Under the pieces are notes generated by a model that was not told the DNA's origin, did not search any database, and saw nothing but the letters and a program-made list of their open reading frames with translations. A program made the translations under genes and the position numbers. From assembly GCA_003116975.1 (NCBI GenBank), contig BGKB01000129.1, positions 62,001 through 126,000 on the forward strand: DNA of 64,000 nucleotides, read 5' to 3'. The stretch comes from Aurantiochytrium sp. KH105 (taxonomy: Eukaryota > Sar > Bigyra > Thraustochytrida > Thraustochytriidae). Of the stretch, positions 18,333 to 27,805 are shown in pieces; position 1 is the first letter of the stretch; every line of letters begins with the position of its first letter.

Positions 18333-18963
18333 CGCCCGCTCGCTCGCTCGCCTCCAGCGTTTGTCGTGTGTTTCGCCAAAAGTAGTGGTACAGCACAGCG
18401 TGCACGTGCCACTTTTCGCGCTGCCTCGCGCCCCGATCCCGTGTGCGCGCACACCGCCCCGCGCGCGCGCCCGCGAGCTGCGCCGAGCGCGGGCGGGCGT
18501 GCCGGCGCGCGCGCCCGCGGCCGGGCCCGCGAGCGAGCGCGAGCGAGCGAGGGAGGGCGCCGCGACGCCCGCCGCAGCGGAGGGCGAAGAAGCCGCCCCT
18601 CGTTCCGCGTTTGTCCGCGGAGCGCCGCGGCGGAACTGACTCGCGAAAGCGCAACGCGACACTGACAGAAGCAGAAGGACTTCACAGGAGGTCGCAGCCG
18701 AGCCGCTCAAGGGAGGAAGGAAGGTGATCACGTCGATCGGGGAGCTCGAGCGGTAACTGCGACACGAGCTATAGGCCTATCTGTGTCTTGAATGCACGAG
18801 TCCGAGTCGCGATCGACATGGGCATCGTCGCGTCGTTCAGGAAATACAGATACTTTTCACGATCTATTCTACGTAGCGCCCGGTAGCGCCTGTCTCTTTT
18901 TTTGGTCTTGCATGCATGCATGCATGCATGCATGCAAAAGGAAGAGCGATTTTACTTTTTGGG
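18333..18963. other. Intergenic region between membrane kinase promoter and HAD phosphatase 3' end
   Basis: Very GC-rich leader sequence (18340-18650) lies directly upstream of the kinase start. The 10-bp palindrome ATAGGCCTAT is at 18771-18780. A (TGCA)n tract follows at 18909-18936, just past the stop of the minus-strand HAD gene. Confidence 0.5.
18909..18936. repeat. (TGCA)7 self-complementary repeat
   Basis: Seven TGCA units form a perfect 28-base palindrome able to extrude as a cruciform or fold as an RNA hairpin. It begins 27 bases past the HAD phosphatase stop, inside the probable 3' UTR or termination zone. Confidence 0.8.
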
Positions 18964-19758
18964 TCATGTCCGGGCTTCGAGAAGCAGGTCGACGAAATGG
19001 GCAAAGTCGTCAACGACCACGTCAGGCGCGCTGCTGTGCTTCGACTCGTCGCCCGAGGTGTACTTTCCAGTACGCGCAAGCACGCCCAACAGACCATGCT
19101 CTTTGGCGGCGAGCGCATCGTCTCGGACATCGTCGCCAATCATGGCAACTTCTTCCAGTGCAAGATCAGGGATTCCAAAGCTTGCAAGGGCTTGCATGAA
19201 AAATCCGCGAGAGGGTTTACCCAAGACGATCGCCTCGGTGTCGCTCGCATACTCGAGAGCAGACACAAAAGCACCGGGGCCGATTTTGATGCCACCGTCC
19301 GAAGTAGCGAGATATCGGCCTTTGTGCGCTGCGAGGAGCGGCGTGCCTCGCTGCAGCGCCTTGAACGCACGGTCGAGGGCCTCATAGTGCATCTGATCGG
19401 GCGCCAAGCCGACCACAACGCCATCATGCTCCTGGTCCTCGGGAAGATTTCGTGCCTCGAAATCTTCACGTGCCGAGGGCGAAAGTAGCAAGAGAGGATT
19501 TCTGAGGCCGCGGCGGTCGACCTCGGCGCGCACAGCCGTGAGGGACGTGAAGAGTTCTTCCTCGCGGACGTCGAGCCCGAGCCTCTTGACGCGCGCCAGG
19601 AGCGCCTGCTTGCTCTCCTTGCTCGTGTTCGACACGAACCGCACCGGCGTCTCGCTCGCCCTCAGCCTCTGCAGCGCCGCCACGGCGTCGCCCACCACCT
19701 GGTCGCCCACGTGCAGCGTCCCATTCAGGTCCACCAGCACCGCGCGCAGCTTCTCCAT
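18964..19758 (-). CDS. HAD-superfamily phosphatase, HDHD2/LHPP-like
   Basis: A 264-residue protein, close to the usual length of HDHD2 (about 259). Motif I is VDLNGTLHVGD, with Asn where most HADs have the second Asp; HDHD2 relatives also deviate here (DLSGT). Motif II is in FVSNTSKES, the motif III lysine is in VLGKPSRGFF, and motif IV is MIGDDVRDDA. A C2-type cap lies between motifs II and III. The fold predicts a Mg-dependent phosphohydrolase on an unknown small substrate. Replacement of the motif I acid/base Asp could reduce or alter activity. The start at 19758 fits the family; an upstream open frame to 19998 encodes Glu/Arg-rich and repeat-derived sequence. It is divergent from histidinol dehydrogenase. 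Confidence 0.88.
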   Translation of the reverse strand: MEKLRAVLVDLNGTLHVGDQVVGDAVAALQRLRASETPVRFVSNTSKESKQALLARVKRLGLDVREEELFTSLTAVRAEVDRRGLRNPLLLLSPSAREDFEARNLPEDQEHDGVVVGLAPDQMHYEALDRAFKALQRGTPLLAAHKGRYLATSDGGIKIGPGAFVSALEYASDTEAIVLGKPSRGFFMQALASFGIPDLALEEVAMIGDDVRDDALAAKEHGLLGVLARTGKYTSGDESKHSSAPDVVVDDFAHFVDLLLEART

Positions 19759-19901: not shown

Positions 19902-20045
19902 CGTGCACGGTGCCTCTTGTTATCGTGCACGCTAACTCATCACTATCGTGCACGGTGCCCTTTGTTATCGTGCACGCTGACTCTTCGCTATCGTGCACGG
20001 TGCCATCTTGTTCTCGTGCACGCTAACTCGTCGCTATCGTGCACG
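19902..20045. repeat. Seven evenly spaced CGTGCACG palindromes
   Basis: Perfect 8-bp palindromes start at 19902, 19924, 19947, 19969, 19992, 20015 and 20038. Spacing is 22-23 bases, about two helical turns, so all face the same side of the DNA. Two spacer types alternate (GTGCC...TTGTTAT and CTAACTC...CTAT), giving a unit of about 45 bases copied roughly three times. It looks like a multimeric transcription factor binding array, though no factor is known to me. Confidence 0.8.
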
Positions 20046-20110
20046 GTACGCCCCGCCGAACGTGCGGCTCGCGGCGCCGCTCCGGAAGGGAGGAAGAAGG
20101 GGGCTCGGCG

Positions 20111-20463: not shown

Positions 20464-21816
20464 ATGGCGCAGCTCCGAGAGGTGGCGGCCAAGGACGTCA
20501 AGGGGCTGAAGCTGGACCCCGTGGACGAGAAGACGCTCGCGGGCGCGCAGGCGATCCTGAGCGACGTGGAGAAGGATGGCGAGAAGGGGTTCCTCAAGCA
20601 CGCCGAGCGGCTCGGCGACCTCAAGGCGGGCCAGAACTTCATGATCGGCAAGGACGAGCTCAAGGCCGCCTTTGATGCCCTCCCCGAGAAGGACCGCGGC
20701 GTCCTCGAGCGCACAGCAGACCGCGTTCGCAAATTCGCAGAGGCGCAGCGCGGGTCCATCAAGGACATTGAGGTCCCCGTCCCCGGCGGATCCGCGGGCC
20801 ACCAGCTCGCGCCCGTCCGCGTGGCGGGATGCTACGCGCCCGGGGGACGCTACCCCCTCCCCTCGTCTGTGATCATGACTGCCGTCACGGCGCGCGTCGC
20901 TGGTGTGGAGAGCGTCTGGGTCGCCTCGCCCAACCCGCAGCCCGCGACGCTGGCTGCCGCCTTCATCGCTGGCGCGGACGGCCTTCTGGCTGCTGGCGGC
21001 GCCCACGCGATTGGCGCTTTTGCCTATGGCCTCGAGGACAAGATCCCGGCCTGCGATGTCATTGTTGGACCTGGCAACAGGTGGGTCACGGCCGCCAAGA
21101 AGCTCGTCTCGGGCCTCGTCTCCATTGACATGCTCGCCGGCCCTAGCGAGTGCCTCGTCATGGCAGACTCGACCGCGGACCCCGCCGTTATTGCCGCTGA
21201 TCTCCTGGCTCAGGCCGAGCACGATACTGACGCCCTCCCCGTCCTCGTCACCTGGGACAAGGAGCTTCCTGCCAAGGTGAACACCGAGCTCAAATCACAG
21301 CTCGAGACCCTTACCACGGCCGAAGTCGCCAGTGTTGCCGTCAGCAAGGGCTTCTACGTGATCGCCGCCGACAAGGAGGAGGCCATCACCGTGACGTCCA
21401 CGGTTGGCCCCGAGCACCTCGAAGTCATGACGACGGACGCCAAGGCTGACACCGCTCGCATCTCGAGCTACGGTGGCGCCTTTATCGGACAAAAGTCTGC
21501 CGAGGTCATTGGCGACTACGGCGCCGGCCCGAACCACGTTTTGCCCACCAGCGGGTCTGCTCGCTACACGGGTGGTCTTTCTATTTTCACCTTTTTGCGC
21601 ATTCGCACCTTTTTGCGCATGGACGACGAGGATTCGACCGAGCAGACTGAGCTTTTCAACGATGCCGTGCACCTTGCGCGCATGGAGGGTCTCGAAGGCC
21701 ACGCTCGCGCCGCCGAGGCTCGCCTCAAGGGTATCAACAAGCGCGCGAATGGCGCCGCAGAAGAAAACGGCGATGCTCCGGAGCCAAAGAAGGCCAAGAC
21801 TGACGATGCCGAATAA
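20464..21816 (+). CDS. hisD: Histidinol dehydrogenase
   Basis: Catalyses the last two steps of histidine synthesis, oxidising L-histidinol to L-histidine with NAD. The 450-residue single-domain protein carries the family core: VGPGNRWVTAAKKLV, IDMLAGPSE, the zinc-site Gln and His in LLAQAEHDTDA, the catalytic pair in VGPEHLE, the Asp in GDYGAGPNHVLPT, and a C-terminal EGLEGHARAAEAR histidine. It is monofunctional, unlike the fungal HIS4 fusion. A charged tail of about 25 residues (RANGAAEENGD..PKKAKTDD) exceeds the family and looks like a nuclear signal or simple disorder. The ATG at 20464 follows GCGAG and begins the conserved part; the longer upstream frame is repeat-derived. A candidate AATAAA lies at 21980. 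Confidence 0.95.
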   Translation: MAQLREVAAKDVKGLKLDPVDEKTLAGAQAILSDVEKDGEKGFLKHAERLGDLKAGQNFMIGKDELKAAFDALPEKDRGVLERTADRVRKFAEAQRGSIKDIEVPVPGGSAGHQLAPVRVAGCYAPGGRYPLPSSVIMTAVTARVAGVESVWVASPNPQPATLAAAFIAGADGLLAAGGAHAIGAFAYGLEDKIPACDVIVGPGNRWVTAAKKLVSGLVSIDMLAGPSECLVMADSTADPAVIAADLLAQAEHDTDALPVLVTWDKELPAKVNTELKSQLETLTTAEVASVAVSKGFYVIAADKEEAITVTSTVGPEHLEVMTTDAKADTARISSYGGAFIGQKSAEVIGDYGAGPNHVLPTSGSARYTGGLSIFTFLRIRTFLRMDDEDSTEQTELFNDAVHLARMEGLEGHARAAEARLKGINKRANGAAEENGDAPEPKKAKTDDAE

Positions 21817-24595: not shown

Positions 24596-27500
24596 ATGAA
24601 GAAGTCGTGGTGGTCGAGCGCCGCTGAGTCCGCGGGGGCCGCGGGCGAGGCCCTCGGCAGCCTCTCGAGGTCGCTCGCGACGAGCGCCATGTCGAACATG
24701 GGCGGTGACTCACGGCAGGCGGCCCTGGCCGAGCAGGAGCGACTCGGCCTCTTGCGCGAGCTCAAGGCTGCCGTACGCGCTACGATTGAAGAGGCGAGCA
24801 CGCGGTCCAAGGATCTCGACAAGGTCGAACTCGATGAGCGCGACGAGGCGATCAGGGAACTCCTTGTTTGGCTGGAAAGGTGTCTCTGGCACGGCTTGCG
24901 GCTCGAGGCCAAGGTGCGGCGAAAGTCCCCAGATGGTTCACGCTTTGTACTCGTCAAAGAGCCCGAGGTGAGTGTTTGGAACTGTGCGCAATACCTCCAG
25001 GGCAGTTCCGTGGACCCGCGTCTCGAAGCGCTGCTCACTGATGTCCAGGATCTGCTGTTTGTGCGATCCAACACGGGCAAGGGCCGAGCGTGGATGCGAC
25101 TTGCGCTCAATGAAAAGGTGCTCGATCTTGCCGTGTCCAAACTGGCAGCGCAAGCCGTTGTCATGCGCGTCTACTATGAATCGTACGCGCTCATGCGCAA
25201 TGAGGAGTCGAGCATGATCTTGGCGTCGATGCTGTCGGGGCTGAACGGTCTGGACATTAAAATTCACGTCGATGTCGAGTCTCTCGACACCTTGTCTCCT
25301 CCACTTCGAGGCGTCTCTGTACACGCGGCCTCCTCTTCTGCCTCGTTGTCGCAGCAACAGCGTTCGCAGCAGCGTTCGCAGCAGCAGCAACAACAACAAC
25401 AGCCGCTGAATCAGCAACAGCAGCCAACACAACGAGCGAGCGCAAATGGGGCACGACGAGGCAATGTCAAATTAGACATGGCAGCGCGGTCGCTTCGGCG
25501 TCGGGCGACAACGAAACGCAAACAGCTTGAGCAAGAACGTCGCAAGCTAGGGAAGTCAGTGGCGTTTCTGGGTAGCCCGCTCTCGCTCCAGGTGCAGACC
25601 GTGACTGTTTCGGCATTGGCGTACCAAGAGCCGAGTATTGCCGTGCCCAACATTTTGTTGCGCGCGATTGCACTTTTTTGGCAGTATGCTCCACGCGAGC
25701 ACGAGCCTACGGGTTTGTTCAGCTCTCGCGAAGGCCTGCGGCCTCATGTGATTGACGCGAAGCGGCGGCTCGACAGACTGCGCAGCGATGGCCTAACAAT
25801 CTTCAGCCGCGTTGACGTGGACGTCGATCTGAGCACGGCGATGTCCAGTATGGCGGCTACGACTCGCGCTGGTTTGAGCGAGCAACTTCAGCCGCAAGTT
25901 GTCGGTGGCATCATTACGACATTTTTGCAGGCCCTTCCCACATCGCTCATTCCCCAGGATGCCTACGAGCCTTTGTTGCTTTGCTCCCAGATTGATGACG
26001 CGGAGGCCCGTCGCCGTAACATCGCGTTGCTCATCGAAACATTTCCATTGGGCCATCGCGCCGTGCTAGACCTTTTGACGCGGACGCTCGATCACCTTTT
26101 CGGAGGGTCGGCGGAGGCCTTTGCAGCTGCGGCTTCGTCTTTGGCGCCCGCGGTTCTGCGTCCTGCGGGTGACGCGCCGCGACAAAACGTTGTGGAGCGT
26201 CAGGTTCTAGGTGAGGTGTTTACACACCACGTGGAGTGTCTGGGTAAGACGAGACAAGATTTGCGTGAGACGCGCGCGAGGCTCGCAGACAAGTGGGCTC
26301 GGCTCCGACGCTATCGCGATGATATGGCCACACCCGTTCGCGAGGTGACGCATGGCCCTGAACTCGACACATTGTGGGCGCTTCTTGACCCAAGCGAGGA
26401 TGGAAAGGAAAAGGGCGTCGATGGTACAGAGGATGACGAGCAAGACAAGCGTGTGGACGAGCAAGGTGGCAAGGATGCGGATGCAGGTTCGCGAGACTGG
26501 ACTGCGCGTGGTGCACAGTCCAAGAACATTCATGAAGACTTTCGTGGAGGCGGCAAATTTGCGCTGGAGATGGTGACGTATTTTGTGCGAGCACACCGTG
26601 CCAAGGCGCGGCTGATCATCAAGTCGCAAAAGTACCCGTTCATTCGTGCTGCCTCGCAAGTGGCACGCCTTTGCAGCGATGTTCTGCAGCTTTCGGCGCA
26701 GGACCATACCACGTTGCCGGAGACGCCGTGGTGGGGACTCCTGAGCGAGAGTGATGCGGTGCCTCGGGTCTTTTGCATGTCCCTCTTGCTGCTCGACATT
26801 AACTTTTGCGAATCTGGCGCGAGTATCACGGACTTTGGTCGCGTCGCGCAGGAGACACGCATTCACATGTCGGATCTCCTCTCGCTCGGACCGACGAGCG
26901 TAAACAAGTTGTGGCACAGCTGGATCCAGCTCCGCGCGGAGCGCATGTTGTGGGCCAAGTCCCAGCAGGGCAACGCTGGTGGTGGTGCTCCTGCATCAGC
27001 AGCACCGACGCCAGCACCAGCACTAGCACCAGCACCAGCACCAGCACCGCCGCAAGCCTCAGTCGGCGCCTCGACGCCTTTGAACGGCGAAGCACATTTG
27101 AGTGCAACGTCAGACGGCCCGAGGGCCACGCAAGAAGAGAATCAAGTGAGCGAGAAGACGCACAAGGAATCGACAAGTGCAAGTGTAGCGGCAACAACAA
27201 CAGCAAAGGAGGAGGGTAAACAGCAGCAGCAGGAGCAGCAGGAGGACGAAGCCGTGTACGCAGGCGTGGACCTAGACCAATTGCTCCCCGTGGTGCTTGG
27301 CTCCACGGAAACGTTGACCAAGACGCACATTGCCAAGCTCGAGGCGGCGTTACCGAGCGTGTACCAGGGCTACGACTGGAAGGCTGTCTTTTCCTCGAAC
27401 GGAAGCGATCACGATATTGGCGATTTTTACAACAACGCCGAGGGGCATGAGGCGACACTGCTGGTTGTCCGAGATAAGGGTGGTGCTATCTTTGGCGGAT

Positions 27501-27805
27501 TCTGCCCGCGCCCGTGGGCTTTGGGCAACGCCTCATACTATGGATCGCCGGAGACATTTTTGTTCACGCTGGAGCCCTCGTTTGCCGTGTATCGTGCGAC
27601 GCAGCGTAACGCGTACTTTATGCTTGCGAACGAGGATTCTTTGGCGCTTGGCGGCGGCGGCGAGTTTGGGTTGTTTTTGGACGAGGATTTCCTGGGCGGC
27701 ACGAGTGGGCCTTGCGAGACCTTTGACTCGCCGTGCTTGGCGTCCGAGGCAGACTTTTCATGTGTCTCGACGGAGCTCTTTGCGCTTCAGGTCCGCGCGC
27801 GCTGA
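24596..27805 (+). CDS. RUN - RhoGAP-like - TLDc multidomain protein
   Basis: A 1069-residue single-exon protein. A RUN-like domain (about 55-235) shows LVWLERCLWHGLR and GRAWMRLALNEKVL. A polyQ linker (about 252-280) follows. A RhoGAP fold (about 325-545) starts at FLGSPLSLQ, with TGLFSSREG in the arginine-finger position, VVGGIITTFLQALPTSLIP and SSLAPAVLRP. A coiled, Lys/Asp-rich stretch and a Pro-Ala-rich linker (about 795-835) precede a clear TLDc domain (about 905-1065: EATLLVVRDKGGAIFGGF, FLFTLEPSFAVY, ALGGGGEFGLFLDED, CETFDSP). RUN domains bind small GTPases of the Rab/Rap type and TLDc proteins protect against oxidative stress or bind V-ATPase, so a membrane-trafficking role is likely. 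The usual finger Arg after GxF is Ser, so GAP activity is doubtful. Confidence 0.82.
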   Translation: MKKSWWSSAAESAGAAGEALGSLSRSLATSAMSNMGGDSRQAALAEQERLGLLRELKAAVRATIEEASTRSKDLDKVELDERDEAIRELLVWLERCLWHGLRLEAKVRRKSPDGSRFVLVKEPEVSVWNCAQYLQGSSVDPRLEALLTDVQDLLFVRSNTGKGRAWMRLALNEKVLDLAVSKLAAQAVVMRVYYESYALMRNEESSMILASMLSGLNGLDIKIHVDVESLDTLSPPLRGVSVHAASSSASLSQQQRSQQRSQQQQQQQQPLNQQQQPTQRASANGARRGNVKLDMAARSLRRRATTKRKQLEQERRKLGKSVAFLGSPLSLQVQTVTVSALAYQEPSIAVPNILLRAIALFWQYAPREHEPTGLFSSREGLRPHVIDAKRRLDRLRSDGLTIFSRVDVDVDLSTAMSSMAATTRAGLSEQLQPQVVGGIITTFLQALPTSLIPQDAYEPLLLCSQIDDAEARRRNIALLIETFPLGHRAVLDLLTRTLDHLFGGSAEAFAAAASSLAPAVLRPAGDAPRQNVVERQVLGEVFTHHVECLGKTRQDLRETRARLADKWARLRRYRDDMATPVREVTHGPELDTLWALLDPSEDGKEKGVDGTEDDEQDKRVDEQGGKDADAGSRDWTARGAQSKNIHEDFRGGGKFALEMVTYFVRAHRAKARLIIKSQKYPFIRAASQVARLCSDVLQLSAQDHTTLPETPWWGLLSESDAVPRVFCMSLLLLDINFCESGASITDFGRVAQETRIHMSDLLSLGPTSVNKLWHSWIQLRAERMLWAKSQQGNAGGGAPASAAPTPAPALAPAPAPAPPQASVGASTPLNGEAHLSATSDGPRATQEENQVSEKTHKESTSASVAATTTAKEEGKQQQQEQQEDEAVYAGVDLDQLLPVVLGSTETLTKTHIAKLEAALPSVYQGYDWKAVFSSNGSDHDIGDFYNNAEGHEATLLVVRDKGGAIFGGFCPRPWALGNASYYGSPETFLFTLEPSFAVYRATQRNAYFMLANEDSLALGGGGEFGLFLDEDFLGGTSGPCETFDSPCLASEADFSCVSTELFALQVRAR

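Follow-up and report, generated by a model that had tools for sequence, protein, structure and literature searches.

A tandem array of putative protein-binding palindromes between divergent phosphatase and histidinol dehydrogenase genes of Aurantiochytrium sp. KH105

Why do seven copies of a perfect 8-bp palindrome, CGTGCACG, stand in a row between two genes of the thraustochytrid Aurantiochytrium sp. KH105? The window, i.e. the whole stretch of 64,000 bp analysed here, is part of the contig designated C129, and the genome searches cover the 76-Mb assembly. An earlier note had listed the seven palindromes, recognized a duplicated 45-base unit in them and placed them between two divergent genes, and all three points agree with our results. 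An exact recount yields the starts given in Table 1 (20038 for palindrome 7) with steps of 22, 23, 22, 23, 23 and 23 bp, and the window contains 11 exact matches, whereas 100 dinucleotide shuffles gave 2.04 on average and never more than 6. Tandem Repeats Finder describes the array as a 45-base unit in 3.2 copies (89% matches, score 227), and also as a 23-base unit (score 132). The array separates the 5' ends of a HAD phosphatase gene (HAD), whose ATG is located 144 bp from the array start, and of a histidinol dehydrogenase-family gene (HDH), whose ATG follows 419 bp after the array end. This intergenic region is probably the shared promoter of both genes, and the motif occurs there in several copies beyond chance, as in a homotypic cluster of binding sites. 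The HAD assignment is based on NCBIfam TIGR01458 (221.6 bits, cut-off 175.95) and on HDHD2 as top PDB match (2ho4, E 2.5e-70), that of HDH on TIGR00069 hisD (396.1 bits, cut-off 243.8); among solved structures, the best match of the HDH protein is (R)-DHPS dehydrogenase (8wwe), narrowly above histidinol dehydrogenases. A coding role for the array was considered and rejected: an open extension of the HAD frame covers part of it, yet the first HAD ATG lies at 19758. Other features of the window are a TGCA tract downstream of HAD (18909-18936), with seven consecutive repeats, which is shorter in the second copy of the locus described below, and a large open reading frame (24596-27805) combining RUN, RhoGAP, ELMO/CED-12 and TLDc domains.

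Table 1. Features of the array region (positions in the window)
Feature	Position	Strand	Remark
HAD-IIA phosphatase gene (HDHD2-like), ATG 19758	18964..19758	-	Pfam Hydrolase_like/Hydrolase_6
Array, seven CGTGCACG, spacers alternating (B-A three times), 45-bp unit	19902..20045	.	homologous array in C61
Palindrome 1	19902..19909	.	exact CGTGCACG match
Palindrome 2	19924..19931	.	1 mismatch vs 14-mer
Palindrome 3	19947..19954	.	1 mismatch vs 14-mer
Palindrome 4	19969..19976	.	2 mismatches vs 14-mer
Palindrome 5	19992..19999	.	1 mismatch vs 14-mer
Palindrome 6	20015..20022	.	2 mismatches vs 14-mer
Palindrome 7, full 14-bp element TATCGTGCACGGTA	20035..20048	.	edge letter-identical in C61
Histidinol dehydrogenase-family gene (HDH), ATG 20464	20464..21816	+	Pfam Histidinol_dh E 8.7e-123

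With a rough probability of 0.78, the array is best explained as a homotypic cluster of putative sites for one sequence-specific protein which would bind a longer palindrome, TAYCGTGCACGRTA, the sites having been multiplied by tandem duplication. An array that is tandem may also be a neutral minisatellite, i.e. a 23/45-bp repeat spread by slippage whose palindromes are uniform only through recent copying, and the window is indeed rich in short tandem repeats (135 Tandem Repeats Finder rows). A second copy of the locus bears on this alternative. A DNA search with the array as query led to a promoter on contig C61 (78% over query bases 65-187), which precedes the only other HDH gene found by genome search and contains five intact CGTGCACG cores at steps of 23, 23, 23 and 23 bp, plus an apparent sixth, decayed site, CGTGCAGT, exactly 23 bp past the fifth core toward HAD. 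The HAD coding sequences of C129 and C61 are 97.2% identical, and 18 substitutions are seen between the HDH genes, whose identity figure is depressed by the end of the C61 piece. A single alignment of the two copies gives 65.5% identity for the array region and 58.3% and 63.7% for the two flanks, and at the HDH-side edge, from palindrome 7 onward, both copies are the same for about 60 bp.

Read from HAD to HDH, the spacers of C129 follow the order B-A-B-A-B-A (A like CTAACTCATCACTAT, B like GTGCCTCTTGTTAT) and those of C61 the order B-A-A-A (GTACCCTGCCCTTAT, followed by three times GTAGCCTCACCCTAT). We read this as indicating that at least one A and at least one B spacer would predate the split of C129 and C61, and that units were later gained, lost or converted in at least one copy. 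Among the 12 intact cores and the intervening spacers of both copies, 16 of 30 spacer columns are variable compared to 0 of 16 core columns (Fisher P 2e-4, with the spacers aligned by hand, the columns non-independent and the decayed sixth C61 site excluded), and alignment of all seven C129 cores to C61 yields 51 matching core letters out of 56. Because the spacers have changed and the intact cores have not, the cores are probably under selection as putative protein-binding sites, and the motif letters are better conserved than the letters between them, as judged from the intact cores and with one C61 end site apparently decayed. Recent duplication accounts for some of the core identity in C61, where three spacers are identical, and the array end is not conserved, as the apparent decayed site beyond the fifth C61 core indicates. 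These two features and the difference in intact copies (seven versus five) would suit a minisatellite, but in such a repeat no part of the unit should be more conserved than another, and neither the single sites and pairs which are retained in second copies outside tandem arrays nor the fixed, oriented partner motif described below would be expected, rendering this alternative quite unlikely. The absence of the array in relatives had been named as a refuting observation; applied to the diverged C61 copy, a comparison within the same genome only, the array proved to be kept. Paired loci are not confined to HDH: 11 pairs occur among the fetched loci, 85-97% identical and with freely diverging intergenic DNA, which suggests diverged haplotypes or a hybrid as origin. 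Matches to a PfaA-like polyunsaturated fatty-acid synthase are paired as well (C72:311448-314582, C155:172083-175217, C61:503-2791 and C290:39390-41678); the best of them scores 930 bits against a cut-off of 1010, and matches below the cut-off were also obtained from 11 of the 14 bacteria and archaea used as controls. Taken with the large multidomain proteins of eukaryotic type, these paired matches suggest a labyrinthulomycete.

As judged from the flanks at other genomic sites, the CGTGCACG core is the middle of the 14-bp palindrome TAYCGTGCACGRTA, which is complete only at the seventh position of the C129 array. Exact TAYCGTGCACGRTA sites occur 49 times in the 76-Mb assembly, compared to one site for the reversed control. 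This difference also bears on the idea that the palindromes serve as structural elements, either as Z-DNA, since the letters of CGTGCACG show a perfect pyrimidine-purine alternation, or as transcribed palindromes folding as RNA. Z-DNA was rejected in view of the rarity of the reversed control, ATRGCACGTGCYAT, which has the same core alternation. The array RNA folds better than shuffles on both strands (z -5.6 and -7.9), but this is expected of any palindrome array, and the z value of C61 is only -2.1, so that RNA structure was rejected as the main reason. An oriented partner at a fixed distance is not expected of structural elements either, and we regard this explanation as very improbable.

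The form TACCGTGCACGGTA of the element is found exactly at 17 places and with up to one mismatch at 44, compared to 20 for the reversed control. Of the 17 exact 14-mers, 16 have an exact counterpart on another contig, and the 17th, from C61, aligns with a C129 core flanked by TAT and GTG. These pairings are based on alignment for L005/L019, L007/L016, L008/L015, L011/L013, L017/L018 and C61/C129, on neighbouring letters for C32/C195 and on the matched letters only for C64/C295. Seven aligned second-copy pairs besides HDH have identical letters at 96 of 96 core positions, a value partly due to ascertainment because most loci had been found by exact match, and the 17 exact 14-mers represent the fairer test. 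In the LeuC promoter, the two copies agree in 32 of 32 core letters and in 45 of 67 inter-site letters; note that decayed cores are under-counted by a search for the exact core. The element stands alone, is paired at distances of mostly 23-30 bp, or lies exactly 8 bp away from a CAACGG motif of fixed orientation.

CAACGG or its complement CCGTTG occurs within 60 bp of 8 of the 43 sites in the fetched loci, and none was seen in the HDH array. Across the genome, the pattern CGTGCACG-N(0-30)-CAACGG has 90 matches (70 for the control), 32 of which have a gap of exactly 8 bp, while the next most frequent gap accounts for 7; these gap-8 counts refer to matches of the core, and the control was compared by total matches rather than by gap. 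The 32 gap-8 matches contain 18 distinct spacers, 14 of them present twice, and 20 of the 32 start with RTA. The opposite orientation, CCGTTG, gave 63 matches (control 69), none of which has a gap of 8. Examples of the oriented, Myb-like CAACGG at gap 8 are found at L020, L043, L044, L046 and L049. The CCGTTG scan also revealed 11 matches at gap 29 (e.g. C21:242503 and C109:242552) in a multicopy stretch starting with CGTGCACGAGATGGATTTGATGTA, which is perhaps a repeated gene or a mobile element. As the palindrome stays intact amid changing surroundings, stands before genes and is coupled to a second motif at a fixed distance and orientation, the site of a sequence-specific factor appears to be the best reading of it.

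The earlier note had assumed selection by a dimeric factor binding cooperatively to sites on one common face of the DNA. Selection on the sites, the expected effect of a palindrome-binding factor, is supported by the C61 comparison, but the phasing is not. At 10.5 bp per turn, the seven sites point to 0, 34, 103, 137, 206, 274 and 343 degrees, rotating steadily by 34 or 69 degrees per step in C129 and by 69 degrees in C61, and the steps are thus not near multiples of the helical repeat. TA-flanked pairs elsewhere, identified by eye among the matches listed, are spaced by 23 bp (C46/C86, C61 and C64/C295) or 24-25 bp (C18/C73, C92/C101 and C9/C35), and further distances among the matches listed are 27, 28, 29 and 30 bp, with a few at 39, 48, 55 and 58; no such pair closer than 22 bp is present among the matches listed, which at gaps 0-30 represent 50 of the 62 forward places. 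Since the range of 23-30 bp spans roughly two thirds of one turn of the helix and the array turns through 343 degrees, room or contact between the bound proteins would fit the spacing better than a common helix face, and the near-constant step of the array is explained by tandem duplication. The genome-wide search for close CGTGCACG pairs that had been proposed as a check produced a slight excess over the reversed control at gaps 12-18 (28 vs 21), but none at gaps 0-30 (62 vs 151) or 31-60 (26 vs 30), and therefore only flanks and spacing carry weight. GCACGTGC repeats are common in the genome, and some pairs at 22-25 bp without TA-type flanks (C6, C17 and C42/C66) resemble local GC-rich repeats.

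The genes next to the sites were assessed by running 45 open reading frames against Pfam, for which long ones were picked in a selection that was not blind. A family was matched by 16 of the 45, and all 16 turn their 5' end toward the site (14 of 14 without one duplicate copy and one match below the cut-off). The other 29 gave no family, including all frames scanned at loci L005-L007, L010 and L016-L019, which leaves the placement before genes undecided for many sites. In addition to HDH and HAD, the recognized neighbours are an aconitase-family protein, an ARMT1-like protein, two SDRs (one of them in both copies), an AidB-like acyl-CoA dehydrogenase, an ABC transporter, 3-hydroxyanthranilate dioxygenase, a fatty-acid hydroxylase, a cyclophilin with an RRM, a kinesin, NAD(P)H-hydrate dehydratase, a nickel-insertion protein and GNT-I (below the cut-off). 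The aconitase-family protein, which is truncated at the edge of the locus, ranks highest with LeuC in NCBIfam and stays below the full-length cut-off.

A co-regulation of histidine synthesis with the phosphatase, as suggested before, is not supported by these data. The exact core is missing from the upstream DNA examined of HisG in both copies (L037/L038) and of the HisC-HAD-IGPD gene in one of its two copies (L039), and the element is present at leucine, kynurenine-pathway, lipid, kinesin and cyclophilin genes, so that a histidine regulon was rejected. The HisC-HAD-IGPD gene is itself an apparent fusion, with a HisC aminotransferase, a HAD phosphatase domain and IGPD in one open frame (L035 1444-3432, minus strand, with L039 3-617, minus strand). 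A broader regulon of amino-acid synthesis would be consistent with the two largest clusters seen, which precede HDH (histidine) and LeuC (leucine), but against it stand the same missing cores at the histidine genes and the presence of sites at SDR, kinesin, cyclophilin, fatty-acid hydroxylase and other genes, and it is considered improbable. General regulatory factors such as Reb1 and Abf1 of yeast are architectural proteins, and a site of this type, or a boundary between divergent genes, might keep promoters open without responding to a signal. The lack of a shared pathway among the recognized neighbours and the location of three loci between divergent genes (HDH/HAD, LeuC/ARMT1-like and kinesin/cyclophilin) would be in accordance with such a role; however, a general factor would be expected at more than 49 full sites in 76 Mb, and a CAACGG partner at constant distance hints at specific co-binding, leaving an architectural function doubtful. 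Because the palindrome also precedes unrelated genes, the data point to a predicted control element of undescribed type rather than to a histidine switch.

If the array is interpreted in the preferred way, as a homotypic site cluster of one palindrome-binding protein, the following mechanism is proposed. We infer that a single protein recognizes the 14-bp TAYCGTGCACGRTA, probably as a dimer and in a cooperative manner. Only 8-9 bp would separate adjacent 14-bp sites, allowing neighbouring proteins to touch, and because of this proximity the filling of the array is expected to be cooperative and to determine the promoter strength, presumably by activation and not by repression. Units of 23 or 45 bp would have been duplicated in tandem as the array grew, with the spacers drifting while selection held the cores. 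At other loci, the same protein would act at single sites, at pairs mostly 23-30 bp apart, or next to a Myb-like protein bound to the CAACGG located 8 bp off.

Homotypic clusters of transcription-factor sites occur in promoters, and the array resembles them in its near-identical sites between two genes, its duplicated units and its conserved cores; it differs in that the motif is not a known one and that the site number varies between two copies in one genome. The Leu3-type Zn2Cys6 site, CCG-N4-CGG, is contained in TACCGTGCACGGTA, and one of the clusters precedes LeuC, but many of the sites carry T/A in place of the outer C/G (TATCGTGCACGATA). The open-licence literature searched contains no described element of the form TAYCGTGCACGRTA, and both the 14-mer and ATCGTGCACGAT are absent from those of its texts that match motif forms of 10 to 14 letters. 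Literature searches on thraustochytrid promoters yielded nothing relevant, and those for the exact motif led to papers with unrelated topics; in PMC5485742, the matching sequence is a cloning primer. In the stramenopile Phytophthora infestans, the array motif of a C2H2 zinc-finger clade (PITG_01388 and PITG_01306) is GTGCAC, the centre of TAYCGTGCACGRTA, and the organism studied here is probably a stramenopile too; GTGCAC is a 6-bp core, and the available text mentions neither a 14-bp palindrome nor an array (PMC11267843). According to the same source, 2R-Myb factors of P. infestans bind CCGTTAC, which has CCGTT in common with CCGTTG, the complement of CAACGG, but differs in the next letters, and the text available describes no pairing with GTGCAC, unlike the arrangement found here (PMC11267843). 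By analogy, the C2H2 and 2R-Myb families are a lead to candidate proteins for the palindrome and for CAACGG, respectively. GTGCAC is also the core bound by the AP2 or homeodomain proteins SIP2, AP2-I and HDP1 of Plasmodium falciparum, with flanking letters altering the specificity; this organism belongs to a different phylum, and none of the extended motifs in the accessible text (GGTGCAC, AGTGCATTA and TGTGCACA) equals CGTGCACG (PMC11417369). The promoter motif M94 of P. infestans, TACCGGTA, is a palindrome with the outer TACC and GGTA of the element, as far as given in the available text, but without the central TGCA (PMC3597505). A text search for GTGCAC, AACGG and CCGTT in the main text of PMC3597505 and PMC3520976 had no hits.

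Taken somewhat further, and with slightly better than even odds in our estimate, TAYCGTGCACGRTA would be an undescribed labyrinthulomycete regulatory element with a grammar of its own, consisting either of the CAACGG composite at 8 bp or of pairs and arrays. Since the two genome copies have HDH promoters with different numbers and orders of sites, the site number may tune promoter strength, which may differ between the copies in one cell. Thraustochytrids are industrial producers of omega-3 oils, and the palindrome, with its fixed partner and its naturally differing copy number, offers a promoter element to test as well as a route to its factor. The two copies of one promoter would represent a natural experiment in the growth of a site array.
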